From Victivallales bacterium (GTDB lineage: Bacteria > Verrucomicrobiota > Lentisphaeria > Victivallales > GWF2-38-69), in NCBI GenBank assembly GCA_021733985.1, contig JAIPJT010000029.1:1-33060 (forward strand): a stretch of 33,060 bases of DNA, given 5' to 3'. Below are positions 5,884-29,943 of this stretch, in pieces. Both the position numbers and the translations under genes were made by a program. The notes beneath the pieces were generated by a model. It was not told where the DNA came from. It made no database searches and saw only the letters and a program-made list of their open reading frames with translations. Within the stretch, counting starts at the first letter, position 1; every line of letters begins with the position of its first letter.

Positions 5884-5885
5884 CG

Positions 5886-5916
5886 TTGAACTTCGCACGA
5901 CGAAGTTTAATCTTTT
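5886..5916 (+). terminator. Probable terminator of leuS
   Basis: TTGAACTTCG (5886-5895) pairs with CGAAGTTTAA (5901-5910) around the loop CACGA, a 10-bp stem with one G-T pair. The weakly T-rich TCTTTT follows. The stem starts 3 bases after the leuS stop. The T tract is short, so efficiency is uncertain. Confidence 0.6.
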
Positions 5917-5932
5917 CTGAAACAAAACGGTA

Positions 5933-5996
5933 GGGCGCGATCTCCGACCGTGTGAGCCATAACCCCGCTACTCCGGGGCGACGGCTTAGCGCGCCG
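5933..5996. repeat. GC-rich nested stem-loop
   Basis: GGCGCG (5934-5939) pairs with CGCGCC (5990-5995). Inside it, AGCC (5955-5958) pairs with GGCT (5983-5986), and CCCCG (5963-5967) pairs with CGGGG (5974-5978). This segment is far richer in GC than its AT-rich surroundings, which suggests an inserted repeat or a folded RNA element. No coding potential is seen. Confidence 0.55.
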
Positions 5997-6111
5997 CAAT
6001 ACAGCATTATTGTTAAATGTATAATAAAATTATACGATTTAATGCAATATTTTACTGTATAGTAATTTTTTGTTTCAGGGGAGAGCTAATCAGAAAAGGG
6101 TCAGAGAATCA

Positions 6112-6155
6112 TTTTGAACTGAAATCTCGTCTGAGTTCACAATTTCAGTTCAAAA
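6112..6155. repeat. Perfect 14-bp inverted repeat
   Basis: TTTTGAACTGAAAT (6112-6125) and ATTTCAGTTCAAAA (6142-6155) are exact reverse complements with a 16-base spacer. No T run follows on either side that would make it a standard terminator. It lies in the 428-base non-coding gap between convergent leuS and the mop gene. Confidence 0.65.
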
Positions 6156-6187
6156 ACTTCTTCCAAACTTTCCAGAAAGGGTCTATT

Positions 6188-6240
6188 TATACACACTACG
6201 ATTGATTTTTCCGTAAAAATCAACCTTTAATTCGTGTATA
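6188..6240. repeat. Nested hairpin, 9-bp perfect inner stem
   Basis: TTGATTTTT (6202-6210) and AAAAATCAA (6215-6223) pair perfectly around CCGT. TATACAC (6188-6194) and GTGTATA (6234-6240) form an outer stem. A further palindrome AACTTTATAAAGTT lies at 6280-6293. No gene is seen in 5884-6311 apart from these structures. Confidence 0.6.
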
Positions 6241-6311
6241 TAAATTAACTCACGATTTCAGGTATTTTTGTACTACTTAAACTTTATAAAGTTCAAATGC
6301 ATAATTTAGGT

Positions 6312-6524
6312 TTAATGTTCTACTCCCATCATAACGTTCGAAGCTTTAATTACAGCGTAAGCATCTTTGCCTTCTCTTAAGCCGAGGCCTTCAGCCGATT
6401 CATTTGTAATGATCGAACAGATTTGTTCTCCACCATTCAATTCAATTGTAATCTCGCTGTTAACTGCACCTTTAACAACTTTTTTAACTGTACCTTTTAA
6501 GCAGTTTCTTGCAGAAATTTTCAT
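6312..6524 (-). CDS. Mop/TOBE-domain molybdate-binding protein (molbindin-like)
   Basis: A 70-residue protein consisting of one TOBE/Mop domain. It begins SARNCLKGTVKKV, contains GAVNSEITIEL and ends in AVIKASNVMMG, which follows the conserved Mop pattern (SARNxLxGxVxxVxxGxVxxEV... AxIKASxVM). Molbindins of this size assemble into oligomers that bind molybdate or tungstate oxyanions between subunits and store or buffer them in the cytoplasm. A ribosome-binding site AGAAAGG precedes the ATG. It lies 83 bases downstream of the iron alcohol dehydrogenase on the same strand and may share its transcript, although that enzyme does not need molybdenum. No molybdate transporter or molybdoenzyme is in the window, so its partner lies elsewhere. 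Confidence 0.9.
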   Translation of the reverse strand: MKISARNCLKGTVKKVVKGAVNSEITIELNGGEQICSIITNESAEGLGLREGKDAYAVIKASNVMMGVEH

Positions 6525-6607
6525 ATTCTCGTTGCCTTTCTCTTAAAGAAATTATGTTTCTGTTTATTCACACTAAAAACAGAAGCGGTCTTATTTATTG
6601 AATAGTC

Positions 6608-7771
6608 TTATAAAGCTGATTTGTAAATTTCGATTATCTCTTCGAGCGTAGCGCTTCTTGGATTTGCAGGAGCGCAAGCATCTTTCATTGCATTTTCCGC
6701 CATTAATTTAAGCTTTTCTTCTTCTACTCCAAGCTCTCCAAGACCGGCAGGTATTCCTACATCCGCTGCTAATGCCTGAATAGACTCAATCGCTATCTCC
6801 GCTGCGTCTCTTGCAGCCAGACCATCTATATTTTCGCCCATCGCTACAGCAATATCCACAAATTTGTCAATATTTGCAATCATGTTAAACCTTTCAACAT
6901 GCGGTAGAATTATTGCATTGCATACTCCATGAGGAAGATCATAAATCCCTCCGGCCTGATGTGCCATAGAGTGAACATAACCTAATCCTGCATTATTAAA
7001 AGCCATACCTGCCAGGTATTCCGCATAAGCCATCTTATCCCGGGCTTCCATATCCTCTCCGTTTGCAACCGCTGCTCTAAGATACTGTGAAACGAGGCTG
7101 ATTGCTTCCAGGGCACATGCATCTGTTACAGGAGTTGCACCGAGCGAAACATATGCTTCAACGGCATGTGTAAGTGCGTCCATTCCGGTCGCTGCAGTTA
7201 AAGCAGGCGGCATACCAACCATTATCTCGGGGTCATTAATGGCAACATCCGGAGTTATTTTCCAGTCGACAATTACCATTTTAATATGCCTTGAAGTATC
7301 AGTTATTACAGCAAACCGGGTCATTTCGCTTGCAGTCCCCGCGGTTGTATTCACAGCTACAAAAGTCGGCATACGTTTTGACAGTTTATTCAACCCCTCG
7401 TAATCAGCTATTTTTCCGCCGTTTGTAACTATTGTCGCAATCCCCTTACCGCAGTCATGAGGGCTTCCGCCGCCAAGTGTTAATATAGAATCACAATTAC
7501 TTTTCTTATATATTTCAACACCTTCTTCAACATTCTTATCTGTAGGATTTGGTACAGTTCCATCAAACACTTCTGATTCAATGCCTGAATCTTTAAGGAT
7601 ATGTACGAATTTGTTTACTAATCCTGCCGCAGCAATACCCTTGTCAGTAACTATTAGGGTCTTTTTGCAGCCCCTTGAGTACAGTTCTTCACCTGTTCCT
7701 GAATGACACCCTACTCCCATAAGCGATACATTCGGGATAAAAAATTCATAAGTCTGTCTTCCTGTAGCCAT
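6608..7771 (-). CDS. Group III iron-containing alcohol dehydrogenase
   Basis: A 387-residue NAD(P)-dependent alcohol/aldehyde oxidoreductase. The nucleotide-binding motif GGGSPHDCGK spans residues 100-109. The metal ligands expected from FucO fall at D198, H202, H267 and H281 with the family spacing: MDALTHAVEAYVS, then GYVHSMAHQAGG and LPHGVCNA. From memory, the whole chain resembles Bacillus methanolicus-type methanol/1,3-propanediol dehydrogenases, including NPTDKNVEEG, TTAGTASEMTRF and INDPEIMVGMPP. A likely role is interconversion of a short-chain alcohol or diol and its aldehyde in fermentation or aldehyde reduction; the physiological substrate is not visible. The start is well supported by AGGAGG six bases before the ATG, the strongest ribosome-binding site in the window, which suggests high expression. 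The dispersed structured repeat lies just upstream in its leader region. Confidence 0.95.
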   Translation of the reverse strand: MATGRQTYEFFIPNVSLMGVGCHSGTGEELYSRGCKKTLIVTDKGIAAAGLVNKFVHILKDSGIESEVFDGTVPNPTDKNVEEGVEIYKKSNCDSILTLGGGSPHDCGKGIATIVTNGGKIADYEGLNKLSKRMPTFVAVNTTAGTASEMTRFAVITDTSRHIKMVIVDWKITPDVAINDPEIMVGMPPALTAATGMDALTHAVEAYVSLGATPVTDACALEAISLVSQYLRAAVANGEDMEARDKMAYAEYLAGMAFNNAGLGYVHSMAHQAGGIYDLPHGVCNAIILPHVERFNMIANIDKFVDIAVAMGENIDGLAARDAAEIAIESIQALAADVGIPAGLGELGVEEEKLKLMAENAMKDACAPANPRSATLEEIIEIYKSAL

Positions 7772-7810
7772 TTTTTTCCTCCTGCTTTTTGTTTTACTTT
7801 AAAGTTACAC

Positions 7811-7980
7811 ATATACACAAGTGTATGCGTTTTTTTTAATCCGGCGTAGTTCCGCAATAGCGAAAACGAAGACTGGATGGTTTTTGTCCTTCGTAGCTGA
7901 ACTTGAACATACATTTTATTTTTCGACCTTATCATTCGATACAGGTCATATCGTATTGTGTTATGGATAAATAACCCAAA
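7811..7980 (+). repeat. Dispersed structured intergenic repeat, copy A
   Basis: This stretch matches 13908-14088 over its full length with small gaps. Shared blocks include ATATACACAAGTGTATGCG plus a T run, TTCCGCAATAGCGAAAACGA, TGTCCTTCGTA, and TTATTTTTCGACCTTATCAT continuing into ATTCGATACAGGTCATA. The copy can fold: AAGTGTATG pairs with CATACATTT (one G-T), CGAAGAC with GTCCTTCG, and GACCT with AGGTC. It sits between the yjbQ stop and the alcohol dehydrogenase start. Orientation is given relative to copy B, which reads the same way. Confidence 0.85.
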
Positions 7981-8040
7981 AATTTTAATTGAAAATTGCT
8001 CTGTTTTGAATTATTCTGAATCTGCTAATCTTTTTTAGTT

Positions 8041-8460
8041 CTATTCCCCTATTACAGTGACAATAATTTTTCTGTTTCTCGGTTTATTATCTGCCTCATA
8101 ATGAAAAATCTGCTGCCAGGTACCGTTTAAAATACGACTTTCCTCTACAGGAACAGTGATATCGGGGCCTGCAAGAGAAGCCTGCAAATGAGAATGGCCG
8201 TTACCGTCATGCCATGTTAACTCATGTCCATAGTTTCTATTCTGAGGTATAAGTCTGTTTAACAGTTCAGGAAAATCTTTTTCAAGGCCGGGTTCAAACT
8301 CAATTGTACCTATTATACCAGTTGAACCAACATTAAATATATGACATATACCAGTTTTTATATTTGAATTATCAAGAATCCTATTTACCTCCGGTGTGAT
8401 ATCAGTCATATCACATTTTCCGGAAGTTTTGATTCTTATTGTTTCCCTATAAACAGTCAT
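8041..8460 (-). CDS. YjbQ-family protein (UPF0047; secondary thiamine-phosphate synthase-like)
   Basis: A YjbQ/UPF0047 protein, 139 residues from the ATG at 8460, close to the usual 138. I chose this start over an ATG 21 bases upstream because GGAAAGGA precedes it at normal spacing and the mature family start (V-Y-R-E-T-I) follows at once. Family features: the HIFNVGSTG segment followed by IEFEPG, the HDGNGHSHL motif with the conserved histidines, GPDITVPVEESRILNGTWQQI, and the C-terminal R-x-R-K-I-I-V-T-V-I-G-E strand. The family is a trimeric beta-sandwich. Weak thiamine-phosphate synthase activity has been reported for some members, but the cellular role is unsettled. It is 44 bases downstream of aspS and probably co-transcribed with it. 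Confidence 0.92.
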   Translation of the reverse strand: MTVYRETIRIKTSGKCDMTDITPEVNRILDNSNIKTGICHIFNVGSTGIIGTIEFEPGLEKDFPELLNRLIPQNRNYGHELTWHDGNGHSHLQASLAGPDITVPVEESRILNGTWQQIFHYEADNKPRNRKIIVTVIGE

Positions 8461-8485
8461 CGGCTGTTCCTTTCCGGTCATGCAG

Positions 8486-8509
8486 AGTAGGAAGCGGTCG
8501 TTTCCTACT
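8486..8509 (-). promoter_or_regulatory. Hairpin across the aspS stop codon
   Basis: AGTAGGAA (8486-8493) and TTCCTACT (8502-8509) form a perfect 8-bp stem with an 8-base loop. It contains the aspS stop codon (8505-8507) and lies just before yjbQ. No T run follows in the direction of transcription, so it is not a standard terminator. It may stabilise the aspS message end or modulate yjbQ translation. Confidence 0.5.
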
Positions 8510-10295
8510 TACTTTTTTTGGGAATATCAAGCTTTATACTAAGTTCTTTCAGCTGTCTTTCACTAACTGAATTAGGTGCGCTCATCATTAAGTCCTGTGC
8601 CTGTTGATTAAACGGGAAAGCGATAACTTCACGAATATTAGGTTCATCTGCCAGTAGCATAACTATTCTGTCTACTCCGGGGGCTATACCGCCATGAGGT
8701 GGAGCACCATATTTGAATGCATTTATCATACCGCCGAATTTTTCATTAACAACCCTTTTATCATACCCCGCTATTTCAAAAGCTTTGTACATTATTTCAG
8801 GTTTATGATTTCTTATAGCTCCGCTGGAAAGTTCTACTCCGTTACAAACAATGTCATACTGATAAGCATAAACATCCAGAGGATTTTTTTCTAAAAGGTC
8901 TTTCATTCCTCCCTGAGGCATTGAAAAAGGATTATGACTGAAAATAACTTGACCGGCATCCTCATCCTTTTCAAACATAGGAAAATCTGTGATCCAGCAG
9001 AATTTATAGCAGTCTTTATTGATAATGTCCAAACGATTTGCAAGCTCTGTCCTTACTGCACCGGCAATATTATTTGCATTTTTTTCTTTGTCGGCAACAA
9101 AAAAGACAACATCACCATCTTTAACACCGGTTATACTTTTTACTGAACTGAGCTCTTTATCTGAAAGAAATTTAACAATAGGGCTTCTTTCTTTGCCGTT
9201 TTGAAAAATTATATAAGCCAGTCCCTTTGAACCTTCAGACTGTGCATATTTAACCATACTGTCAAAAAAGCTTCGCGGTTTATCAGCTATGTTCTCGACT
9301 TTCAGCGCACGAACTACACCGCCCTTTTTTACTGTCCCGGAAAAAGCGTTAAATTTACTGTTTTTAAAAACTTCAGAAACGTCCTGAATAATAAGAGGAT
9401 TTCTCAGGTCAGGCTTGTCTGTTCCATATTTCAGCATTGATTCTTCATAGGGAATCCTTATAAATGGAGCCTCAATAACCCCCTTTTTACTGTATTTATT
9501 AAAGACATGGACGAACAACTCCTCCATTGCCGAAAAGATATCCTCCTGTGTCACAAAACTCATTTCCACGTCTAACTGATAAAATTCCCCGGGCGAGCGG
9601 TCAGCTCTGGCATCTTCATCTCTAAAACAGGGAGCTATCTGAAAGTATTTGTCAAACCCTGCAACCATTAAAAGCTGCTTGAACTGCTGCGGCGCCTGTG
9701 GCAGGGCATAAAATTTCCCGGGATGAAGTCTGCTGGGTACCAGATAATCTCTTGCACCTTCAGGAGAACTGCTCGTTAAAATGGGAGTCTGGAATTCCGT
9801 AAATCCAATATCAATCATTTTTTTGCGGATTTCAGATATTATCGCTCCCCTTAAAAGAATATTATTTTTGAGTTTTTCCCTTCTCAGATCGAGAAACCTG
9901 TGTTTAAGCCTTATTGCTTCAGAGCATTTATCATCTTTTGCAATTTGAAATGGTATAATTTCAGCTTCTCCTAATATTTCCATTTCATCTGCAACTATTT
10001 CGATTTCACCTGTTGCAAGCTTTGGATTAACAGACTCCACAGAGCGCTCTACAACTTTACCGGCAAAGCAGATTACCGTTTCAAGGCGCCAGTGTTCAAG
10101 TGTTTTATAAAAATCACGCTTGGGATCTATAACTATCTGGACAAGACCTGTTTTATCTCTAAGATCTATAAAAATAATACCACCATGATCTCTAACACTG
10201 TGAACCCAGCCCGATACTTTTACTGTTTTATCAATATCATTTTTCGATATTTTACCGCAATAAATAGTTCTATATCTTTGGCTTTCTTTAAACAT
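8505..10295 (-). CDS. aspS: Aspartyl-tRNA synthetase (bacterial type)
   Basis: A class IIb synthetase that charges tRNA-Asp. The ATG at 10295 is preferred (596 residues; GAAAGGA before it) over one 24 bases upstream. Domains in order: an N-terminal OB-fold anticodon-binding domain ([19 protein letters not shown], about 29-47); the class II core with motif 2 [22 protein letters not shown]; a bacterial GAD insertion in the middle; and motif 3 [14 protein letters not shown] near the C-terminus. Position 37 is His in VRDHGG. In studied enzymes His here, with a Gly in a later loop, marks non-discriminating AspRS that also charges tRNA-Asn. The later loop here ([10 protein letters not shown]) lacks that Gly, so specificity is unclear. 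It reads divergently from tig and is followed by yjbQ. Confidence 0.97.
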
Positions 10296-17304: not shown

Positions 17305-18522
17305 TTACCAGTTTTCCTGCTCAAGCCAACCGTTTTGCAATGTAAACCGGAGTTCATTTCTAAATGGAAACTTTGGATTTTTTTCTAAGAACCGTTCTAT
17401 TCTCGAAATTTTTTCAGGATCTTCAATTTCAATAAGTTTCTCATGTCTTTTTTTAAGGTCTTCTATGTTACACCGCCATAATTTAACAGGGATAAAGCTA
17501 TCGATGATCGATGCAATATAATATCCGTCAAAATCACTGTCTCCCCAGTGGAAAACATATTTTCTTTTTTCTTTCAGGAGCTCTAATACCTTCTTAACTG
17601 CTGAGTTAGGATACCCGGAGGTAAAGATAAGCCCTTTGTTGCTCGAATTTCTTTTTAAAGCATTAAACGGAGATTCATTTTCACAGGTAAATAGTTCGAA
17701 ATTTTCATCCAATCGAAAAGATTCAATCCCCTGCAGATTATCCATGGAAAGTGTTACGCTTTCCCCGACTTCCCAGAGCCTTTTGATAAAACAGTACTTC
17801 TGCTGTTTTTTTAAAAAAGTAAAAGGACCGTACAGCGTCACCTTTACTGCAGTAGGATTAGTTATTATTTTAAAATATTCAAATACTGAAAATTGTGTGT
17901 TCCATTTTTCTTTAATTCCCCGATTTTCCAGTATTTTTAATAACAGTTTATAAACAATATTAAATATTTCGGTACCTTCCCTTACGGCCTTGCTGTCATT
18001 TAAAACTTTTGACCCCAGTTCGGAAAAATCCAATATGTTTTTATTTGAAAGAATATATTCAAAAACTTTCAGGGAATCTAAAATTAAATCCTTTTTATAT
18101 TTTTTTAAAAAACCTTTTTCTTTTAAGAAAAAGAGAAGGTTTGAATCCAGAAACGGAAAATTAAGCTGCAGCTTTTTAAGCAAAATTTTCTGACTCTCTT
18201 TTTTCTCGGCCTCTGCCAGAGATTTAGGTTTCTTAGTTATACCGGAAAGCTCAAATATTTTTTGTAACCATTCTTCTTTCTGTAATTTACTAAATGATTC
18301 AAAAAATAATTTTAAATCAATATATGTATTTTTAAAACAATCAGAGTTAAATGCAAATTGCAATTTTTTTGTTAAGACTTCAGAAGGCTTTGATATTGTA
18401 AGCTTATTCTGTACTTTCCCATTAGTATTATAGTATCTGCATATCCTACTTATAAGAGCTGAAAATTCATTATCGTCTCGAATAAAAGCTGCTATCTGTT
18501 CAAAATATTTGTCTTTATTCAT
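17305..18522 (-). CDS. jetD: JetD/MksG-like Toprim nuclease of Wadjet
   Basis: A 405-residue protein, predicted nuclease subunit of the system. The N-terminal half is helical and poorly conserved, as in JetD, where it forms winged-helix/arm domains for dimerisation and SMC contact. The C-terminal Toprim domain is clear: TCENESPF with the catalytic Glu E281, a strand plus GYPNSAVKKVLELL, then HWGDSDFDGYYI with D328 and D330 as the metal-binding DxD. The chain ends in WLEQENW, and a terminal LEQE motif is shared by JetD/DUF2220- and DUF2399-type proteins. Toprim similarity to topoisomerase VI A/Spo11 is known for JetD. No ribosome-binding site is obvious before the ATG at 18522. The 94-base gap from jetC contains competing hairpins, so this toxic subunit may be expressed separately. 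Confidence 0.88.
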   Translation of the reverse strand: MNKDKYFEQIAAFIRDDNEFSALISRICRYYNTNGKVQNKLTISKPSEVLTKKLQFAFNSDCFKNTYIDLKLFFESFSKLQKEEWLQKIFELSGITKKPKSLAEAEKKESQKILLKKLQLNFPFLDSNLLFFLKEKGFLKKYKKDLILDSLKVFEYILSNKNILDFSELGSKVLNDSKAVREGTEIFNIVYKLLLKILENRGIKEKWNTQFSVFEYFKIITNPTAVKVTLYGPFTFLKKQQKYCFIKRLWEVGESVTLSMDNLQGIESFRLDENFELFTCENESPFNALKRNSSNKGLIFTSGYPNSAVKKVLELLKEKRKYVFHWGDSDFDGYYIASIIDSFIPVKLWRCNIEDLKKRHEKLIEIEDPEKISRIERFLEKNPKFPFRNELRFTLQNGWLEQENW

Positions 18523-18532
18523 TATAATGTAT

Positions 18533-18575
18533 ACCCAAATCTAATTAATTTTGGGGGTCATCAATATAAAACCCC
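18533..18575 (-). promoter_or_regulatory. Mutually exclusive hairpins in the jetC-jetD gap
   Basis: In transcript sense, GGGGT (18575 side) can pair with ACCCC near 18558-18554. The same CCCC segment can instead pair with ATTTGGGT (18540-18533), 10 bases before the jetD ATG. Only one helix can form at a time, as in attenuators. The stems are short (5 to 8 bp with a bulge), so this may be chance. Confidence 0.3.
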
Positions 18576-18616
18576 GAAAGAAAGGTAAAAGTGTATACAA
18601 GTTATATGGTACAATA

Positions 18617-21600
18617 CTACAGTTCTTTTTCAAACTGTATTTTTTCTTCGTTTTTATCTTCATCGAACAGCTTAAATTTTCCCTGTTTGTCACTATCCGG
18701 ATTTTTCCAGTGGAAAGGGTACAAATGAACATCGTAATTAATATCTTTTACAATGAGTAATGAAGTAGAATGTGATATTTCTTTTCTTACGCCGTCCTGG
18801 TCTGGAGTTGCTATAAATATCTGCAGTCCAATATCACCTGCAAACCCCATTAGTTGGTCGCGCCTGCCGGCATCAATGCCGTAAAAAGCTTCATCAAAGA
18901 TTAAAACTGGAAGTTTGATTTTCGTGCCACTGTACAGAAAGTGTGAAATAGTAAGAACCAGTAGGTAATTTGGTACAGACTGTTCACCGCCGGATCCTAT
19001 ACTTTTAACCCTTTTATCCATTACATTATCTTTAGATTCTGGTGATTTTACATACATTTCGTAAACATACCAGTTTCTGTAATCGAGTATTTCGGGTATT
19101 TCGTTTGGCTCTGTATCAACAATTTCATTTCTATAATCTTTAAAAAAGTTCTGCAGTTCTTTTTCTATCTCTTCATTCATTGGATTATATTTCTTAATTA
19201 TTGATATGAACCTCTCATACTGTGGCTGCACCTTAATTTTAAAAACATACTGATTGTTGCCAAAATATCTGTTACCAAGAAGTGAATTAATATTTTTCAC
19301 CATTGTCTGAAGGTGTTCTATTCTTTCCCGTAAATAATAGACAAGTTCATCCATAATAATTTTTCTAAAAAGTTCAGTAGTCCGCTCATTTATTATTTCC
19401 TGTTGCTCACGTATTTCAGCGTCATATCTGTTGCAAATATCTTTAATATTTCTATTAGCTCTGTCTACAAGCAGATTTTTATCTTCACTATAATTAAATC
19501 CGAATTCAATGCTGTATCTTTTATCATAAATCCTTTCTAAGATTCTGGCCTTGTACTTAACTTCATCAAGCTTGGCTTTCCCCGCCATATTCCTGCAGTC
19601 ATCAGCATTATGGAGATTTAATGTACTTCTCTGCTCATTAAAATAACTTTCAATATCGCTCTCTTCAGATTTTTCAGTAAACTTATGAAGTACTTTCCGG
19701 TAGTTTGTTTTTTTTTCCGTTAACTTTTTTATTTTTTCCTGTAATTCTATTTCAGTTTCACTTTTGAGTGTCTCATTTGACCAGATTTTCCTCTCGATAT
19801 TTTTTATCTGTTTATCACAACCCTTTAATTTCTGTTGAAGTTCTTTTATTTTATCTTCTACATTCTTCAAACCTTCAGTTCTGATAATTTCCTGTATATT
19901 CTTCAACCTCATTTTAAGATTTTCATCTTCAGAAATTAAATTGACCAAATCGCCCTGTTTTTCTCTGATAAGAGAATTAGTAGTCTTAATTAATAAAGAA
20001 TCATTATTCAATTTTGATAAACAGTTTTCTAATTGCCTTGTATTTTTATTTGTATATTCTATGAAATGCACCAGTGTTTGTTTTAACCGGTTATTCTGCT
20101 TTATTTCCTCGTTTACTTCTGTTTCAGCTTTATTTAAATTTTTCAAGTCTAACCTTAAACTTTCAATCAGTTTTTTGATTTTCAATTTACGGTTTTCCTC
20201 TCCAATTATATATGACTCCAAACCGGAAAATCCCCTTTTATGCGCACGGAATGATACAGATACACATTCTTTGTCAAACGAAAGCTCAACTTTATCATCA
20301 GCTATCATTTCTATTGCAAGGGCTTTAACTGAATCCGGATCACTTTCTCCCAGGTCAAAATATTTTTTTATCCATTGCGGGATATCAATATCAATTAGAT
20401 TCAATCTTTTTTCAGGAATTATTCTAATACCGGGGTAATCACTGAATACAAATTCAGAAACTTTTCTAAAATCCTGTTCTTTGAGAATTAACGAACATAA
20501 AATATTGTTCCCTATAAATTCCTCAACTGCATCCATTTCGCGCGGTTCCACCCCCGAGTTCCAGACAAGTCCCTTATATAAAGGCTTATAATCTACCATT
20601 GTCTGATCAAACTCAGTTACAATTTCAGAATAATATTCTACTTCAGGCACAAACTCCAGCTGTTCTTCCCGTTTTTTGATTTCGTCCTCTATATCCTGAA
20701 TATCTTGTAAATGTTTTGTGTGAATGTTTTCAAGTTTTGTATTTTTTCCAATGCAGCTGTCTTTATGAGCCGAAGCTTTTTTGTAGTATTCCTCAAAGTT
20801 GATTTCCTGTACAGATTCAGTCGTTGCTTCCACTTTCATATGAATAAATTTTTCAAAAGTTGAAATCAATTCACCAATAGAAAAAGGCAAAGCAACACTT
20901 ATTTTAGAAAATTTCGCAAGAAAACTTTGGTAATGACCATATATTTTTTTTATATTCTGTTCATAAGTTTTTTTTACGTTATTAAGTTCTACCCGGAACT
21001 TTTCAAGGTTTCTTTCCCTTGTTTCTTTTTCGTCAGCAATCTGTTTTATTCGTTCTCTGATATTTTCTTCTTCACGGATTAAACCGCCAGCATCTTTCTG
21101 CTTGTAATCTTCGATCTGATTAACAATATATTTCCTATTCTTATCAGCTGAAGAATAAGTTATTTCAAGCTCGGATAATTCTTTTTCTAAGTATTTTTCC
21201 CTGTTTTCTAAAACAACAATTGTATTTTTTAAATCTTCAATTTCAAACTGCAGGGCAAGGCATTCTCCCGCGACAGCGTGTTTTCGCTTATACTTAACCT
21301 CCTGTACCAGCTCCAGCAAGCTTTTAATATACTCATACTTCCCCTTGAGTGTCTGGATTTCATTTTTACTCATATCCAGAGACCTGAGAGAATCGATAAT
21401 TTTTTCAAACAAATCTTTCCTTGGTTTTGGTAAAAGCCGTTTAAACAGTTCATGATAATCTGAAGTCTGTGATGCTATTTCTCTATAAGCCTTCCCGATT
21501 GAAAGGAACATACAAAAATCTTTAAATTGTTTTTCTCCGCCAAGAAACTGCTGAGCCAAATTATTTTTGTATGTTTGAGGCTGAAGATGTACTACTGCCC

Positions 21601-22105
21601 CTCCTAACACTTTTTTTATTTCATAAGCTGTTCGGGGACGAAACTCACCTTTGCTATTCTCAATCAAAAAAGGGAGAGACTCAATATTTCCAGGACGAAT
21701 TATTCCCCAGCGTTTTAAGTTTTCCTGTGGAGAATTGACAGACATACCAACCGCAACTGTCCAGGGGTTTCCGTTATATCCAATGATCTCAAGAGCAGCG
21801 TAAGTTATTCCTCCATTGGGGTTTAAATGCCCCTTATCGATATTATACCTTGTTATTATTCCCTGGGCTCTCCTTCCTTCAGATTTACTGCCGGCAATTC
21901 TTGCGGCAGAATTAAATTCCATCGACTCCCCCGCTGTAAGAACATAATGCACAGCATCAATCAACGTTGTTTTTCCGGAACTGTTGTCTCCAAGTACAAA
22001 AAGATGACCGCGATCGACGATCTCTATAGTTTCATTTACAAAATTATGAAAATTGATCAGACGAATTTTCTTTATATAATAATTATTATTTTTATCCATT
22101 TTCAT
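18617..22105 (-). CDS. jetC: JetC/MksB-like SMC-family ATPase of Wadjet
   Basis: A 1162-residue SMC/MukB-like motor subunit. Walker A is GDNSSGKT (39-46) in an N-terminal head that begins KIRLINFHNF. Long heptad-rich coiled coils (about 275-500 and 645-960) flank a globular hinge at about 515-645. The C-terminal head has the ABC signature-like GSGGEQS (1037-1043) and Walker B VLIFDEAF with D1071 and catalytic E1072, followed by FIATPDQD as the switch region. ATP-driven head closure powers loop extrusion with JetA and JetB. The start overlaps jetB by 14 bases, which suggests translational coupling; a second ATG lies 6 bases in. SbcC/RAD50 is an alternative label, but the signature and neighbours fit JetC and no zinc hook CxxC is at the hinge. 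Confidence 0.92.
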   Translation of the reverse strand: MKMDKNNNYYIKKIRLINFHNFVNETIEIVDRGHLFVLGDNSSGKTTLIDAVHYVLTAGESMEFNSAARIAGSKSEGRRAQGIITRYNIDKGHLNPNGGITYAALEIIGYNGNPWTVAVGMSVNSPQENLKRWGIIRPGNIESLPFLIENSKGEFRPRTAYEIKKVLGGAVVHLQPQTYKNNLAQQFLGGEKQFKDFCMFLSIGKAYREIASQTSDYHELFKRLLPKPRKDLFEKIIDSLRSLDMSKNEIQTLKGKYEYIKSLLELVQEVKYKRKHAVAGECLALQFEIEDLKNTIVVLENREKYLEKELSELEITYSSADKNRKYIVNQIEDYKQKDAGGLIREEENIRERIKQIADEKETRERNLEKFRVELNNVKKTYEQNIKKIYGHYQSFLAKFSKISVALPFSIGELISTFEKFIHMKVEATTESVQEINFEEYYKKASAHKDSCIGKNTKLENIHTKHLQDIQDIEDEIKKREEQLEFVPEVEYYSEIVTEFDQTMVDYKPLYKGLVWNSGVEPREMDAVEEFIGNNILCSLILKEQDFRKVSEFVFSDYPGIRIIPEKRLNLIDIDIPQWIKKYFDLGESDPDSVKALAIEMIADDKVELSFDKECVSVSFRAHKRGFSGLESYIIGEENRKLKIKKLIESLRLDLKNLNKAETEVNEEIKQNNRLKQTLVHFIEYTNKNTRQLENCLSKLNNDSLLIKTTNSLIREKQGDLVNLISEDENLKMRLKNIQEIIRTEGLKNVEDKIKELQQKLKGCDKQIKNIERKIWSNETLKSETEIELQEKIKKLTEKKTNYRKVLHKFTEKSEESDIESYFNEQRSTLNLHNADDCRNMAGKAKLDEVKYKARILERIYDKRYSIEFGFNYSEDKNLLVDRANRNIKDICNRYDAEIREQQEIINERTTELFRKIIMDELVYYLRERIEHLQTMVKNINSLLGNRYFGNNQYVFKIKVQPQYERFISIIKKYNPMNEEIEKELQNFFKDYRNEIVDTEPNEIPEILDYRNWYVYEMYVKSPESKDNVMDKRVKSIGSGGEQSVPNYLLVLTISHFLYSGTKIKLPVLIFDEAFYGIDAGRRDQLMGFAGDIGLQIFIATPDQDGVRKEISHSTSLLIVKDINYDVHLYPFHWKNPDSDKQGKFKLFDEDKNEEKIQFEKEL

Positions 22106-22820
22106 GTTCTTCCACCCCTAAATTATCATCATTATATCCATGGTCCTGAACATTACTATTGTCTCGATCCTCCTTTTCATAACTCCCAACAACCTCCCCT
22201 GTGAGCCTTCCGGTATTATAATGGTAAAGAGCCGGTAAAGCTTCATATATAAAATCATATTTGTATCTGTTGAGCCCATGCATCTTCCCTTCAGGCCTAA
22301 TTTCTTTTAAAAACCTGAACTGTAGTAATTTTGGCATTAGCTGCCTCAAAATTTTCGAACGTATATATTCCTCATTATAACGGTCTTTTTTATTTTCAAA
22401 AAGCTGTATAAAGCGTTTGTGGCAGTACTGCAGTAAATCACCGAACGTGAACCTTAAATTATGCTTATCTTCCGCTGTTATTGAATTGTCATCAAGCTGC
22501 CTTTCAAAGAACTCGAGGAGACACATAAAGGCAATAGCTTCATCACGGCCAGTAACCCTGAACTGTGCTCTCTGTTCGGGCTTAACAGCATCATTGTACC
22601 ATTTATTTTTGTAAACTCTCGCGCATTTTGAATCAATTATAAATTCCCAGTCATAATATTTCCTGAAGAAATCACCAAATTCATTTCTGTACCTGTGCAT
22701 AAAATAATAGAGATTTTCATTATCATCTTTATAAAAATACGGGCATTCGACAAGAACATTTAATACAGCAGCAACTTCGTCTCTGTACTTTTCCAACAAA
22801 CTATCGATATCATTATTCAT
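22092..22820 (-). CDS. jetB: JetB/MksE-like subunit of Wadjet
   Basis: A 242-residue protein in the position and size range of JetB (KITE/MksE-like, winged-helix). It opens with a helical segment (LLEKYRDEVAAVLNVLVECPYF), then RNEFGDFFRKYYDWEFIIDSKCARVYKN, a wing-like strand pair with the ARVYK segment typical of DUF4194/DUF2398-type subunits, and a GRDEAIAFMCLLEFFERQ helix. The last 35 residues are acidic and Gly/Asn/Asp-rich and probably disordered. In the complex, KITE-type dimers bind the kleisin and DNA. Assignment rests mainly on context plus the fold pattern, since this family is weakly conserved. It overlaps jetA by 8 bases upstream and jetC by 14 bases downstream. Confidence 0.8.
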   Translation of the reverse strand: MNNDIDSLLEKYRDEVAAVLNVLVECPYFYKDDNENLYYFMHRYRNEFGDFFRKYYDWEFIIDSKCARVYKNKWYNDAVKPEQRAQFRVTGRDEAIAFMCLLEFFERQLDDNSITAEDKHNLRFTFGDLLQYCHKRFIQLFENKKDRYNEEYIRSKILRQLMPKLLQFRFLKEIRPEGKMHGLNRYKYDFIYEALPALYHYNTGRLTGEVVGSYEKEDRDNSNVQDHGYNDDNLGVEEHENG

Positions 22821-24372
22821 AATCGTGTTTCTTCTTTAAAATCATTTCACTAAACTTTAAATTTGCTCGTTTTAATTCAATACTGACAAGATTGTCGATT
22901 ACTTCCAATTCCATCCCCAGTTTATTTAGTTGTTTACCTTTACTCAGTATTCCAGCTTCAGCAAGTTCTACAATTTTCTCAAAATCTTCGAAAGAATCAA
23001 AATCCCAATTAGAAACTTTTTTCCCCAGGCTCTCGTTATCGGCAGTTTTACATTGAATCCATTCATTGAGTTTTTCCAGTTTGTACTGTTCTAAACTTTG
23101 GACAGGCCCGCTCCCGCTTTTTTTTCTGATTTTTATAAAATGCTTAGGTTCTTTGATTTTTTTATCACTTATTAATCTTGGCAGTGGTGGATTAGCTTTT
23201 TCGAATCCTTCTTTCCAGTAATTACTGTCAGTTGACATTTGCGTATACGATAAAAGCTCAAAAAAGAAACTATCAAAAGTTTGACTTTCATCACTTTCAG
23301 ACATCTCCTTAATTCTGGCTTTCAAATCTTCCAACCGGGTATTTTTCCTTTCAAGTTCCCGTAAGTAAGCACTGATTTTGCCCCAGACCTTAATTGCTGT
23401 ATCATTTATTCTTCTGCATAGCTGATCAAGTTTTCCTGAACTTTTATAAAAATTTTCCAATGCGTTAAATATTCTTATAGGCGACTGTTTTAAAAATTTT
23501 CTATTTGACATAAATGGAAATTTAGTATAATATTCAGCAGTCAATACTGCGCAGTCATTCAATGCATATTCAATTTTTTTGTCCTTCTTTATCCTTCTTA
23601 AAAGTTCAAGAATTTCCCGTCTTAATTTATCTAACTGTTTTAAATATGCTGTAGTATAAAACTCCAGTTCAAAAACAGCGTCTTTAGCTTTTTCAAGTTT
23701 ATAGTTTGATAAAAGGAATCCTAAAAGTCTGGCATTTAATTCTCCAAGCTGATTACTGATTCTTAATGTTAAGTCATCGAGCAGATTTACACCGTAAACA
23801 ACTGAAACCGCCTCCTGCATTTTGCTGTCTTTTTCGGAGTAATTATCTTTCAAAATTCTATTTAAAGCTCTCATTATTTCTTTTAAACGCCCGATAAAAT
23901 CTATTAGAAAATTTCTCGAGTCAATTGGATTACTGTCTTCGTCATTACGATAACATTCTTCTAACCAGTTTATAAATAAAACAGCTTCATCAGTTAAACT
24001 GAATCTGAATTTTCTGCGCCTGATATCTTTGTAACCGCGCAGCCTTTCTTTTTCAATTCTTCTTGACACAATTTCCCAGTCATAAAGCTGCTGAATATCT
24101 CTATTAAAAGCTTCTACCGGATATTCTTCACCGGAAAAGACTTCCTGGGCGGGTTTTACTGCAGAGTAAATTTCTTCATTTAACGGTTCGAGCTCATGTT
24201 CATTCCTGTAATAAAGCATCCTTAAAAGAATATTTACATAAAATATGCTTCTTTCGGATGCAAACATTATACCTAAATTCTGATTGCGGCTTAAAACAAG
24301 ATTTGCACCTTCACCCCGATTGAAAGCTGAAATACGGTCGACATCCAAATTAACTTTATTTTCTCCTGCCAT
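22813..24372 (-). CDS. jetA: JetA/MksF-like kleisin subunit of Wadjet
   Basis: A 519-residue protein from the ATG at 24372 (a GTG two codons upstream is possible). The N-terminal 130 residues look like a winged-helix region: YVNILLRMLYYRNEHELEPL, then DIQQLYDWEIVSRRIE and RRRKFRFSLTDEAVLFINWLEE. This pattern is found in JetA/MukF-like and DUF2397/DUF3375-type proteins. A long helical middle (about 150-370) and a C-terminal domain follow. The kleisin role is to bridge the two JetC heads. The gene starts 10 bases after the dxr stop with no clear ribosome-binding site, so it probably depends on dxr translation. The exact Wadjet subtype cannot be settled by eye; JetA and JetB look closer to the DUF2397/DUF2398 style than to classic DUF3375/DUF4194, but this is impression only. 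Confidence 0.8.
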   Translation of the reverse strand: MAGENKVNLDVDRISAFNRGEGANLVLSRNQNLGIMFASERSIFYVNILLRMLYYRNEHELEPLNEEIYSAVKPAQEVFSGEEYPVEAFNRDIQQLYDWEIVSRRIEKERLRGYKDIRRRKFRFSLTDEAVLFINWLEECYRNDEDSNPIDSRNFLIDFIGRLKEIMRALNRILKDNYSEKDSKMQEAVSVVYGVNLLDDLTLRISNQLGELNARLLGFLLSNYKLEKAKDAVFELEFYTTAYLKQLDKLRREILELLRRIKKDKKIEYALNDCAVLTAEYYTKFPFMSNRKFLKQSPIRIFNALENFYKSSGKLDQLCRRINDTAIKVWGKISAYLRELERKNTRLEDLKARIKEMSESDESQTFDSFFFELLSYTQMSTDSNYWKEGFEKANPPLPRLISDKKIKEPKHFIKIRKKSGSGPVQSLEQYKLEKLNEWIQCKTADNESLGKKVSNWDFDSFEDFEKIVELAEAGILSKGKQLNKLGMELEVIDNLVSIELKRANLKFSEMILKKKHDYE

Positions 24373-24382
24373 ATTCACTTGT

Positions 24383-25513
24383 TTATTTTAACCTGTTTTT
24401 TGCCCAGCTGTCAGCGTCAATAATTTGTTCCAGAGTTGGATTTTCTACAACTTTATGTTCGTTCATTATGTTCTCTATTATATCCCATATTTCAGTAAAA
24501 TATATTTCTCCTCCGATAAACTTTTCAACTGCTAATTCGTTTGCAGCATTCATTACGGCCGGCATAGTGCCCCCGGTTTTCAAAGCATAAAAAGCAAAAT
24601 CCAGGCTGGGAAATTTTGTTCGATCTGGTTCATAAAAGGATAAGCTTTTAATTTCAGCCAGGTTTAACTTCTCGAGACCTCCGGGTATTTTTTCGGGATA
24701 AGCCAATGCGTACTGGATAGGAAATTTCATATCAGTTACGCTTAACTGAGCTAAAAAAGTTCCATCCACAAATTCTACCATTGAATGAATAATAGACTGA
24801 GGATGAATAAGAACATCTATCTGGTTCGGTGTTACTCCAAACATCCATTTCGCCTCAATAATCTCCAGTGCCTTATTCATTAAGCTGGCAGAGTCAATAG
24901 TAACTTTCCGCCCCATGCTCCAGGTTGGATGTTTTAAAGCATTTTCCAATGTTGCTTTTTTCAGTTCAGCCTTATCAGTATTCCTGAAAGCTCCACCGCT
25001 GGCAGTTAGAACAAGTTTTGAAATATCGTTCTTCTTTTTCCCTTCAAGACACTGAAAAATAGCACTGTGTTCACTGTCAACAGGCAGCAACCTGACATTA
25101 TTCTTTTCAGCAGTTTTCATTACAATCTCACCGGCCATAACTAAGATTTCCTTACTGGCAATTGCAATATCTTTTCCGTTTTTTAAAGCTTCAAGGACAG
25201 GCAGCAAAGCAGCGGTTCCTACAACTGCACAAAGGACAATATCAACTTCGGTCTGAACTGATAATTCGACCATACCTTCAGTTCCATGCTCAACCTCAAA
25301 ATCTTTCCCTAACCTTTTCTGCAGTTCTCGAACATATTCTTTATTACAGACAATCTTTCTGCATCCCAGCTCTCTCGCCTGTTTTTCAAGTAATTCAATG
25401 TTTTTATTTGCAGCTAAACCCACAACTCTAAACATATTTTTCAGGTTTTTTACAACCTCAACCGTATTCCTGCCTATTGAACCGGTTGATCCTAAAATAA
25501 CAATATTTTTCAT
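24383..25513 (-). CDS. dxr: 1-deoxy-D-xylulose 5-phosphate reductoisomerase
   Basis: Second enzyme of the MEP isoprenoid pathway, converting DXP to MEP with NADPH. I start it at the ATG at 25513 (376 residues) rather than 45 bases upstream, because GAAAGG precedes it and it begins directly with KNIVILGSTGSIG, the N-terminal NADPH-binding loop (GSTGSIG). Other family motifs: IASKEILVMAG, LLPVDSEHSAIFQ with metal-binding residues, LTASGGAFR, and HPTWSMGRKVTIDSASLMNKALEIIEAKWMFG, which carries the catalytic and flexible-loop region. Length is slightly below the E. coli enzyme (398). Its usual neighbours (uppS, cdsA, rseP, bamA) are absent. Instead it sits between an SNF2 helicase and jetA, which is unusual. 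Confidence 0.97.
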   Translation of the reverse strand: MKNIVILGSTGSIGRNTVEVVKNLKNMFRVVGLAANKNIELLEKQARELGCRKIVCNKEYVRELQKRLGKDFEVEHGTEGMVELSVQTEVDIVLCAVVGTAALLPVLEALKNGKDIAIASKEILVMAGEIVMKTAEKNNVRLLPVDSEHSAIFQCLEGKKKNDISKLVLTASGGAFRNTDKAELKKATLENALKHPTWSMGRKVTIDSASLMNKALEIIEAKWMFGVTPNQIDVLIHPQSIIHSMVEFVDGTFLAQLSVTDMKFPIQYALAYPEKIPGGLEKLNLAEIKSLSFYEPDRTKFPSLDFAFYALKTGGTMPAVMNAANELAVEKFIGGEIYFTEIWDIIENIMNEHKVVENPTLEQIIDADSWAKNRLK

Positions 25514-25620: not shown

Positions 25621-28600
25621 TTAACTTCTTATTAATTTAAGTAGCTCGTCTTCGTTTATTCTTGAAGCAGTGTCTGTTCCTTCAAGGATGTCTTCCGCCA
25701 GGCCTCTTTTTTCATTATGTAAGTGTATAATTTTCTCCTCAATCGTATTTTTCATAATCAGTCTGTAAATCGTAACCGGTCTTTGCTGACCGATCCTGTG
25801 AGCACGGTCGGAAGCCTGATCCTCAACAGCTGGATTCCACCACGGATCAAGATGAATAACGTAATCCGCAGCAGTTAAATTGAGACCGGTTCCACCCGCT
25901 TTTAAACTTAGTAAAAAAATGTCACTTTTGCCGGTCTGAAATCTTTCCACTGCTTTTTTTCTGTCATTTGGCTTAGTGCTTCCGTCAATATACTGGTATG
26001 TGATATGATTTTTGTCAAGCAGCCGCTTAATCATATTCAGGAAACGTACATACTGGCTGAAAACTAATGCTCTATGATTATTATCTTTTAGCTTAACCAC
26101 AGTTTGTAAAAAGGTCTTTATTTTACTATTTTCTATTTCTACATTTTTATTGACTAATGAAGAATGGCAGCAGGCCTGTCTAAGCTTAGTTATTTCTGCG
26201 AGCATATTGAAGCGTTTATTTTTATTATCAGTTTCAGATATATTTTCTATATTTTCGACAGCCTTCTGTCTGCAAGCCTCATAAAAAGTTTTTTCTTCAT
26301 CAGAAGATTCAATAAAAATATTCTGCTCAGTTTTTGGTGGAAGTTCTTCAAGAACATCAGTCTTTATTCGCCTTAATATAAATGGACTCATTAGATTTTT
26401 CAGTATTCTTTTTTCCTGAGTATTTCTGTCATTTTCAATAGGATTTATGAATTTTTTTTGAAAAGACTGCAGTGAACCTAACTGGCCGGGATTCAGAAAC
26501 CTAAAAATACTCCAAAGTTCACCAAGATGATTTTCGATAGGTGTACCGGTCAAAGCAAAACGGGTTGCTGCATTTAGTGAAACAGCGGCTTTCCATCGTT
26601 TTGTAGTTGGATTTTTTATGGCCTGCGCTTCATCCATCAGTATAAGCTGCCATTTCTTAGCAGCCAAATCGTCATTATTAATCTGCATTAAACCATAACT
26701 GCAAATTAGAACATCCATTTTCTTGAGAGATTTTATAAGCTGTACCCGGTTAGAAGATTCAGCAAAATAATGAATATTTAACGTTGGCGCAAATCTGCTA
26801 ATTTCATCTATCCAGGTAAAACAGACAGAAGTTGGTGCAACAACTAATGAAGGCCCATGTTTTGCTTTCTCAAGGAGCAGGGCAATTGACTGAACAGTTT
26901 TTCCAAGCCCCATATCGTCTGCCAGACAGCCGCCTACCCCCCAGTGAGCCAGCCTTGAAAGGAATTTATAACCGTCTTTCTGATAATCTCTTAGGTCTGC
27001 AGCCAACGTTCCCGGTATTCTCGGATTATGCTTTTCAAGTTTATTTAATTTTTCAATATGTTCAGTCCACTGTTTGTCAACTTCAGTTTTAGCCCCTTCG
27101 TTTTGGAAATTCTGCAGAACACGCGATCCAAGTTTATGAACCTTATTTTTTTCTGCTACAAACTTCAATTCTTCAATATGTTTTCTGAATTTTTCCGTCA
27201 GGCCTAAAAATTTACCTTCGCTCAGTTTTATAAAACGCCCTTCAGGCGAATTAAAGTTGTCGAGAAGGTATTTTAGTTTTACGATACCGCCATCATCAAG
27301 TTTTATATCGCCATCGAATTCGAACCAGTCATTTTTAGTTCTTAACTTCAAACTCATGTTTTTATATGAAACAGTCTGCTTTAAATTAAGACTTTCCCCC
27401 TTCGGCCATTCTATTAACAGACTGTGCTCTTCTTTATATTTTTTAACCTGTTCTAAAAGTTCAAGGCAGTCCTGTAAATCTTCGAAAATCCATTCATCGT
27501 TATTTGCATTAGTTTCCTGGAGCACTTGTATATTTTCTATAACTGTATCTGCATTTTTTCTTTCTTCCTTCAAATTTCTTATAACTTTATACCGAGTTCC
27601 AAGCTTTTTATTATTATTGCCTTCCGATAGAAAAGTCTGTATTTTTTCACCGTGCCCCGGACGAAGATAAGGTCCTTTATTATCAAACGGCCTTACCCAT
27701 AAATTTATTTTAAGGCCACGGTTTATCGGTATAAAATGTAAAATCATACAGGTACTGGGGTTTAGAGTCGGTAAGTCTATATTTTCAATATTTGAACGTA
27801 AAGCATATTTTCCTTTAAGATTCTTTTGAATTTCTTCAATTTGTTCTTTCTTTTCAAGGGGAACATTTAAACCTTTTTTTGTTAACAAATCTGCAGCTTC
27901 TACTGCATTGTCATCAAAGTTAATTAACTTATACCTTGTTTCTGTTTCTCGAACTAAGATCGGTTCCGGTTTATAATGATAATTAGACAAAGTTATTTTA
28001 TAGCCGTCTTTGTTTTCCTTAATAATTACCTCTATATTCCCTTTAACAATTTCAATATTTAAACCGTTGTCCTCATTAAAAACTAAAGAATGGCCGATCA
28101 TTGCTTCAAGAGCATCTGAATGGTTAAAGCTGTACTCTGCGTTGTGGTAATATCCGCCGCTGTATTTCTTTACGCAACGTGCTATTTTCCAGTCTTCCTC
28201 AGTGAAATATACAAGTTTACTATCTTTATTATATAATCTTGAAAGTGCAATTCTTTTACCTTTGGACCAGTTTCCATTTTTTAAAACTTTCTGTTCAACA
28301 GGTGTAATAAATAATTCATCAACATCAAGTTTCCATATTACACGATTTTGTTCTACGGTTGAACTTTTATCAGTTTTCTTTTTATCAGAAATCAGTTTTG
28401 TCAGAATTTCAAACTTATATTCCCAAAAGTCTTTTTTTCTGAAAAGTGATAAAAACCTTAATTTTTTATATGGGGTAACATTTTCTAAAAAATGCCTGCA
28501 GTTATTATTATCCTGAAATTTCAAGATTAATTCAGCCATTATATGTGCATGCAAAACCAGGCCTTCATCACGATAAACCTTAAACTTACCAACGTATTGC

Positions 28601-29943
28601 GACAGAGATTTTTTTACCCTCTCTTCATTAAGTAAATATTCTAAAATTATATATAACAATAAATTTCCAATATCATCTTTTAATTCGGACACAGAAAGCT
28701 TCAGGTTAAAAAAGTAGTTTTTAGCATATTGATAATTCCCCTCCTGCAGTTCAAGCAGAATATCCCAGTAATTTATTTCTTTGTATAAATCATCAAAATT
28801 ACGCCTTAACTTATTAATTTCAGTTTTAGCTTTTCTCATAGTCTTACTATCAGATAAATAGATCAATATAAGAAATTTTACAGCAATACTTTTATTAGTA
28901 AAACCGGCACCTTCCTTTTTTCTCTGTTTATTCATTGTATTTATCAAACTGCTTTTAGCTTCTGCAAAATTCCCGTTAATAAATTTTTCTATACCAGAAA
29001 TGAATAAAGTTTCAGCCTCTTCTCCATACATTTTTTCGTATTTCTTTTTAGAAAATATCCCAAGGGCTAAATCCAAATCAACAAAGTAATTCACTATAAC
29101 TTTATCGAGATAAATTTGATGGAGACCTTCATTGTTTTTATATAAATCAAGCCAGTAACCAAAATTGGCCTGCCTAATTCGTGTTAATCCCATAATTGAT
29201 GAAAATTTCGTAAAACTGAATAACAATTTTATATAATTATTTCGTTCTTCAAACCATTTATCATCATCAAAATCAGCATTATTGAAAAGTTTTATAAAAG
29301 TATTGAATAAATCTATTATTTTTTTTGACTTAGGAGCATACGACATTCCGGACATCTTTTTTGCTATATCCTGGAAACTGCTGTCAATATCATTCTTGTC
29401 ATCAGTTTCACCTTCTTCATCAGCTATAAAATACTTTTTGAAGAAATTCGAATTATTTTCATAAACTGCAAGATACAAACTTTGCGAAAAAACTGTTTCC
29501 TGTTTTTTCACAAAATCATAACGCAGAAAAAAATGTTCAGGCATAGCCTCTACACGTTTATTGTTGTAGTTTTTTATGATATCTGCTGTACTGTCGTGTT
29601 TGATAACCTTTTCTACATTCAAAAGCTGATCTTCCTCAATTATCCTTTTTTCATAGCTTTGATCCTGAACAGTTTCTTTGGCAATATAATGCCTCAGAGC
29701 AAGGTTGAGAAATTTACCATCTTCGAGGAGTCCCTCATTTTCGAATATGGAAAAGACCATTTTTAAATGAGAATGAGTAAATACTTTATCAGATTCTGTT
29801 TTAATACCAGCACTTCTGATACAATTTAAAAACTCGTTTTTATTCTCAGCTAAAAACAAAGCTTTAAACTGCAGTATCTTCTTATAAACTTCCGGTAAGC
29901 GGTTATATGCTCTTATTAGTTTTTCTGTATCAATATTCTTCAT
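25621..29943 (-). CDS. Large SNF2/Swi2-family helicase-like ATPase (1440 aa)
   Basis: The C-terminal third is a full SNF2 motor: motif I ADDMGLGKT (K1015), motif II LMDEAQ (D1104, E1105), motif III LTGTPIENHLGELWSIF, then the second RecA lobe with VFSQY, GGTGLNLTAADYV and QASDRAHRIGQQRPV as motif VI. Such proteins translocate along double-stranded DNA to remodel DNA-protein complexes rather than unwind it. The first roughly 950 residues are not recognisable: mostly helical from 1 to 600, then beta-rich from about 600 to 950. I see no SWIM zinc finger and no nuclease motif. Large bacterial SNF2 proteins with undefined N-termini are common, and some belong to defence systems (DISARM and others). 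Proximity to jetABCD makes a DNA-surveillance role plausible, but no Wadjet system is known to need it. It starts 16 bases after the dtd stop. Confidence 0.9.
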   Translation of the reverse strand: MKNIDTEKLIRAYNRLPEVYKKILQFKALFLAENKNEFLNCIRSAGIKTESDKVFTHSHLKMVFSIFENEGLLEDGKFLNLALRHYIAKETVQDQSYEKRIIEEDQLLNVEKVIKHDSTADIIKNYNNKRVEAMPEHFFLRYDFVKKQETVFSQSLYLAVYENNSNFFKKYFIADEEGETDDKNDIDSSFQDIAKKMSGMSYAPKSKKIIDLFNTFIKLFNNADFDDDKWFEERNNYIKLLFSFTKFSSIMGLTRIRQANFGYWLDLYKNNEGLHQIYLDKVIVNYFVDLDLALGIFSKKKYEKMYGEEAETLFISGIEKFINGNFAEAKSSLINTMNKQRKKEGAGFTNKSIAVKFLILIYLSDSKTMRKAKTEINKLRRNFDDLYKEINYWDILLELQEGNYQYAKNYFFNLKLSVSELKDDIGNLLLYIILEYLLNEERVKKSLSQYVGKFKVYRDEGLVLHAHIMAELILKFQDNNNCRHFLENVTPYKKLRFLSLFRKKDFWEYKFEILTKLISDKKKTDKSSTVEQNRVIWKLDVDELFITPVEQKVLKNGNWSKGKRIALSRLYNKDSKLVYFTEEDWKIARCVKKYSGGYYHNAEYSFNHSDALEAMIGHSLVFNEDNGLNIEIVKGNIEVIIKENKDGYKITLSNYHYKPEPILVRETETRYKLINFDDNAVEAADLLTKKGLNVPLEKKEQIEEIQKNLKGKYALRSNIENIDLPTLNPSTCMILHFIPINRGLKINLWVRPFDNKGPYLRPGHGEKIQTFLSEGNNNKKLGTRYKVIRNLKEERKNADTVIENIQVLQETNANNDEWIFEDLQDCLELLEQVKKYKEEHSLLIEWPKGESLNLKQTVSYKNMSLKLRTKNDWFEFDGDIKLDDGGIVKLKYLLDNFNSPEGRFIKLSEGKFLGLTEKFRKHIEELKFVAEKNKVHKLGSRVLQNFQNEGAKTEVDKQWTEHIEKLNKLEKHNPRIPGTLAADLRDYQKDGYKFLSRLAHWGVGGCLADDMGLGKTVQSIALLLEKAKHGPSLVVAPTSVCFTWIDEISRFAPTLNIHYFAESSNRVQLIKSLKKMDVLICSYGLMQINNDDLAAKKWQLILMDEAQAIKNPTTKRWKAAVSLNAATRFALTGTPIENHLGELWSIFRFLNPGQLGSLQSFQKKFINPIENDRNTQEKRILKNLMSPFILRRIKTDVLEELPPKTEQNIFIESSDEEKTFYEACRQKAVENIENISETDNKNKRFNMLAEITKLRQACCHSSLVNKNVEIENSKIKTFLQTVVKLKDNNHRALVFSQYVRFLNMIKRLLDKNHITYQYIDGSTKPNDRKKAVERFQTGKSDIFLLSLKAGGTGLNLTAADYVIHLDPWWNPAVEDQASDRAHRIGQQRPVTIYRLIMKNTIEEKIIHLHNEKRGLAEDILEGTDTASRINEDELLKLIRS

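Follow-up and report, generated by a model that had tools for sequence, protein, structure and literature searches.

The locus analysed here raises the question of whether four consecutive open reading frames on the minus strand of a Victivallales contig (GenBank assembly GCA_021733985.1, contig JAIPJT010000029.1) encode a complete Wadjet anti-plasmid system and, if so, which of its types they represent. The window, meaning the whole stretch of 33,060 nucleotides that was analysed, contains an intact jetA-jetB-jetC-jetD operon at positions 17305–24378, with the following features:

22813–24378, minus strand: jetA, kleisin subunit, DUF2397-like, starting at GTG 24378 or at ATG 24372
22092–22820, minus strand: jetB, KITE (MukE-like tandem winged-helix) subunit, 242 aa, short form
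18617–22105, minus strand: jetC, SMC ATPase, 1162 aa, with short coiled-coil arms and a type II-like hinge region
17305–18522, minus strand: jetD, Toprim-type nuclease subunit, 405 aa, with a C-terminal LEQE

An earlier note on this DNA had described four adjacent minus-strand genes, the first three of them overlapping, and this layout was recovered: jetA and jetB overlap by 8 bp, jetB and jetC by 14 bp, and jetD follows jetC after a gap of 94 bp. The in-frame ATG at 24372 is the jetA start used in that note, and the GTG lies at 24378. A single copy of the operon is present in the source genome.

The catalytic subunits were recognised from sequence families and motifs. JetC scored above the Pfam cut-offs for AAA_29 and SbcC_Walker_B, and carries a Walker A motif (GDNSSGKT, residues 39–46), a signature motif (GSGGEQ, 1037–1042) and the Walker B acidic pair DE (1071–1072). 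Across 17 JetC relatives, residues G39, D40, N41, S43, G44, K45 and T46 were invariant, as were the stretches 1037–1042 and 1070–1078, and position 42 was conserved in at least 90%. JetD passed the cut-offs of JetD_C (33.8 bits, cut-off 22) and DUF2399 (31.9 bits, cut-off 23.4), consistent with the Toprim-type domain proposed for it, and reached only 35.7 bits against TIGR02679 (cut-off 196). In 39 JetD homologues, E281, N282, D328, D330 and E401-Q402-E403 were invariant, the last three being part of the terminal LEQE (400–403). All the JetC motifs and JetD residues named in the earlier note were thus located at the positions given there. As these catalytic motifs are intact and conserved, we infer that the system is functional.

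The identity of the two small subunits was less evident. Both had been regarded as divergent from the DUF3375 and DUF4194 forms, and the searches agreed: JetA matched neither DUF5716 nor DUF3375 (Pfam, PADLOC), and JetB remained below the cut-offs of DUF4194 (19.4 bits, cut-off 32.7) and DUF2398 (24.3 bits, cut-off 26.9). JetA did pass DUF2397, by a small margin (30.6 bits, cut-off 28.5). Single-sequence and profile searches of the PDB sequences retrieved no relative of JetA, JetB or JetD, and PDB relatives of the first two surfaced only by fold comparison, using AlphaFold models built from 50-sequence alignments each (mean pLDDT 85 for JetA and 84 for JetB). The best Foldseek match of JetA was the type II JetA of Neobacillus vireti (9qe0_E, E 9e-10), followed by MukF. 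The overall TM-score of this best match was low (0.42), probably because a long multi-domain kleisin was compared in one frame, and the family assignment is based on the Foldseek E-values and on the agreement among the matches. For JetB, the best folds were the N. vireti Wadjet II JetB (E 8e-5), the E. coli Wadjet (type I) JetB and then MukE. The kleisin and winged-helix relationships expected for these proteins were hence recovered, and the modelled folds identify JetA as a kleisin and JetB as a KITE protein. MukBEF, whose MukF and MukE rank high in the structural comparison, shares the kleisin, KITE and SMC folds, but it lacks a JetD nuclease, and its sequence identity with the proteins studied here is very low. 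With a kleisin-fold JetA, a KITE-fold JetB, an SMC ATPase as JetC and a JetD of the JetD/DUF2399 (Toprim) kind, the operon is a Wadjet system by anatomy.

The assignment to a type was approached with relatives of the operon gathered from one genome per species (103 found, 80 kept), which define a clade that numbers 80 loci or more, the majority from metagenome-assembled genomes of Lentisphaerota, Kiritimatiellota, Verrucomicrobiota and Desulfobulbales. Type II Wadjet systems are characterised by the families DUF2397, DUF2398, TIGR02680 and TIGR02679/DUF2399, and type I systems by a JetA of DUF5716 or DUF3375 and a JetB of DUF4194. The PADLOC search against JetA–D models gave matches that were split over types I and II: JetA matched type II only (JetA2, 3e-8, covering part of the protein), JetB matched models of both types, JetC was best matched by JetC1 of type I (1e-53) and then by JetC2 of type II (5e-25), and JetD matched both types, with type I better. 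The same pattern was seen clade-wide for JetB, and JetA of the clade matched type II models only, any single model reaching fewer than half of the members. No type III match appeared at E values up to 1 in PADLOC, whose models include JetA3 (PDLC00566), and a search with PDLC00566 found no genuine type III system in the phylum of the window. Judged by its sequence, the operon matches no curated Wadjet type, since JetB falls under both Pfam cut-offs, JetC scores 62 bits against a TIGR02680 cut-off of 463, and type III is not matched.

A profile-profile comparison was then used to relate the clade to types I and II. JetA of the clade was matched to type II with 97–98% probability and to type I (DUF5716) with 68–72%, against 2–28% between types I and II themselves; the probability against the DUF3375 branch was at most 1.5%. 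JetC scored 509 between the clade and type I, 428 between the clade and type II, and 302 between types I and II, and the corresponding JetD scores were 187, 198 and 80. In the JetD profile alignment, the TCEN, HWGDxD and LEQE motifs of the clade lined up with the equivalent motifs of type I; in type II, JetD retains CEN and GDxD but lacks LEQE. The clade is therefore nearer to each of the two types than these are to each other, and by profile comparison it appears as a bridge between them.

Trees were built with the clade, type II (9 references) and two type I branches, one with DUF5716 (n = 6–8) and one with DUF3375, genuine type III being absent from them. The references with a DUF3375 JetA had been considered as type III, a reading that was rejected because they fall under type I in PADLOC and the Mks system of C. 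glutamicum is likewise described as type I (PMC10123090); they were taken as the second type I branch. The clade was monophyletic in JetC (support 97/93), JetD (100/97) and JetB (99/98), and a split joining it with type II against both type I branches was obtained in JetC (100/98) and JetD (98/94). Forcing the clade onto either type I branch was rejected by the AU test for JetC (p about 0.01) and marginally rejected for JetD (p 0.03–0.05). These trees are unrooted, so that a description of the clade as sister to type II assumes a root off the clade–type II branch, and the JetB tree, which has long branches, supports a distinct clade and no finer placement.

These trees bear on the possibility that the operon is a recombinant mosaic, in which a type II JetA would have been combined with JetB, JetC and JetD of type I. 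The PADLOC output could be read in this way, with JetA of type II and JetC and JetD best matched to type I. However, the clade falls with type II in the trees of both JetC and JetD, the AU tests agree, and on the strength of these two trees we reject the mosaic as scarcely tenable. The type I appearance of JetC and JetD is a matter of common length and motifs, not of common descent.

A second alternative, that the operon is no more than a diverged type II system, deserves more attention. Type II (N. vireti JetABCD, PDB 9qe0 and 9qe1) shares with the clade the JetA family and fold, the winged-helix core of JetB and the sequence of the hinge region: JetA passes DUF2397 and is nearest to type II JetA by profile and by fold, and the region of JetC between the arms (approximately residues 460–690) matched the type II hinge with 95.5% probability, against 36% for the type I hinge. 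In addition, clade and type II fall in one group in the JetC and JetD trees. Nevertheless, type II forms its own clade without these sequences, with support of 100/100 in JetC, 100/99 in JetD and 98/96 in JetB, and the scores for TIGR02680 and TIGR02679 (62 against 463 and 36 against 196) are far under their cut-offs. The dimensions of the proteins also differ. The distance from Walker A to the signature is 942–1014 residues in the clade (mostly 995–999, and about 997 at this locus), compared with 951–996 across both type I branches and 1192–1249 in type II, and the coiled-coil arms of JetC are, in total, about 200 residues shorter than those of type II. JetB measures 208–259 aa in the clade (median 222) and 202–251 aa in type I, but 395–491 aa in type II, whose C-terminal extension of about 180 aa is missing from the clade; and JetD has the LEQE terminus that is seen in type I. 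Membership of type II is for these reasons regarded as unlikely, although less so than a mosaic.

Type I (E. coli GF4-3, P. aeruginosa PA14, C. glutamicum MksBEFG) resembles the clade in JetC length, in the distance between Walker A and signature, in JetB length, in the LEQE ending of JetD and in JetC as a whole by profile, with a score of 509 where type II reaches 428. It differs in that the JetA of the clade belongs neither to DUF5716 nor to DUF3375, JetB is under the DUF4194 cut-off, the hinge region is of another kind, and the JetC AU test excludes the clade from type I. From its sequence, then, JetC of the clade seems to combine a type II-like hinge with short arms. Altogether, the operon is very likely a complete Wadjet (JetABCD) anti-plasmid system of a distinct fourth branch, which groups with type II and has the compact build of type I. 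The suspicion in the earlier note that the subtype might be uncommon was right, and it can be made more precise: the branch stands apart, groups with type II and has type I-like dimensions. No description of the clade was found in the open-access literature, bioRxiv and other preprints and most subscription journals being outside that search, and the branch is apparently undescribed.

The carriers of the clade belong to Lentisphaerota, Kiritimatiellota, Verrucomicrobiota, Desulfobulbales, Acanthopleuribacter, Fibrobacterota and Candidatus Electryoneota, including isolates such as Pontiella sulfatireligans and Acanthopleuribacter pedis; the nearest publicly named relatives are Lentisphaerota metagenome-assembled genomes, e.g., GWF2_38_69. 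The four genes lie on one strand in 54 of the 80 loci (order A-B-C-D in 44 and B-C-D-A in 10), many of the remaining loci being interrupted by contig ends, and the recurrence of this set in 54 independent loci excludes a chance arrangement. The B-C-D-A permutation corresponds to loci L083, L086, L090, L092, L093, L098, L106, L119, L123 and L125, several of them from rumen Kiritimatiellota. Extra genes were found within the operon, mostly in the jetC-jetD interval, in L086 (5317–7483), L106 (13644–16077), L082 (8520–9989 and 13562–14710) and L121 (7993–9090), encoding DUF4143 AAA ATPases, a Schlafen/AlbA_2 protein, a YhcG PDDEXK nuclease and a T5orf172 protein, and in L058 an opposite-strand SNF2/Helicase_C gene (6195–9287) separates jetA from jetB. 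Finally, JetC is split into two ORFs in L124, L125, L104 and L120, as is JetA in L124, which suggests that these copies have decayed or were misassembled.

No member of the clade was detected in viral contigs or in plasmids, the latter searched by JetA. When plasmids were searched for genuine type III systems, with JetC and JetD of type I as queries, the intact operons examined were all of type I. In a conjugative plasmid of Vibrio nigripulchritudo (L149), the Wadjet system is broken, since an IS3 transposase interrupts its type I jetC (5617–6767).

Regarding the surroundings of the operon in the window, jetA starts 4 bp past the stop codon (junction at 24378–24383) of dxr, the gene for 1-deoxy-D-xylulose 5-phosphate reductoisomerase, and transcription may be common to this housekeeping gene and the defence operon. 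The dxr neighbour was not seen in the nearest relative, where the neighbourhood differs, and the base composition of the operon resembles that of its surroundings. The only known defence gene nearby encodes a SNF2 helicase of the DpdE/ZorD kind (1440 aa, 25621–29943, minus strand), with DpdE as best PADLOC match (1e-178) and ZorD next. No further Dpd or Zorya partners were found for it among the window proteins scanned, and a second, weaker copy of this helicase is present elsewhere in the source genome (G000, contig 10).

The proximity to dxr and the native base composition would suit another explanation, namely a chromosome-organising SMC complex similar to MksBEF, with a regulatory nuclease and no part in plasmid defence; in P. 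aeruginosa, complexes that resemble JetABC but have no JetD act in chromosome segregation (PMC10586767). Against this, JetD has been retained and its active site is invariant, the nearest relative does not share the neighbourhood, and the distribution is patchy: two of three genomes of the family carry the system, and in the phylum-level group of the window a JetC of the clade kind was found in 22 of 388 sampled genomes, which represent 19 of the 198 genera, a spread that fits the expectation for defence and not for a housekeeping function. We find this explanation highly improbable, nearly as much so as the mosaic. The absence of the clade from plasmid and viral records and the scarcity of defence neighbours were counted against the reading as an anti-plasmid system.

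For the fourth-branch Wadjet system, loop extrusion followed by cutting is the likeliest mechanism, given the conserved catalytic residues, the full operon and the patchy distribution; the model itself is carried over from the type I and type II systems that have been tested (PMC10586767, PMC12647877). By analogy with them, the dimeric JetC ATPase would be closed into a ring by JetA and a JetB dimer, and two such JetABC motors, joined through JetA, would extrude a loop of DNA. Once a small circle had been reeled in whole, the motors would collide and the Toprim sites of JetD, with a metal presumably held by E281, D328 and D330, would cut the DNA, while linear DNA and the large chromosome would be spared. 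Plasmid cutting by this operon is thus expected from its relatives, and its job is probably ordinary, the unusual aspect being the branch to which it belongs.

In conclusion, the chances seem about even that the clade is a fourth Wadjet type, sister to type II, which has retained an ancestral compact build. If so, type II would have arisen from a compact ancestor through longer SMC arms and the JetB extension, and the clade suggests in which order the changes between types I and II took place. It also helps to show that types I and II are one system, as profile comparison hardly connects the JetA proteins of the two and those of the clade match both. As current models divide its subunits between the two types, present tools likely misfile the clade or use a catch-all category. 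According to Liu et al. 2025 (PMC12647877), type I passes tethered obstacles by means of a hinge channel that is missing from type II, and SMC proteins without such a channel tend toward longer arms; Wadjet II, Wadjet III and MukBEF, none of which has this channel, are mostly built with long coiled coils. A hinge of apparently type II kind joined to short arms would thus make this clade a natural test case for weighing the hinge channel against arm length in SMC motors, and for whether long arms compensate for a closed hinge.
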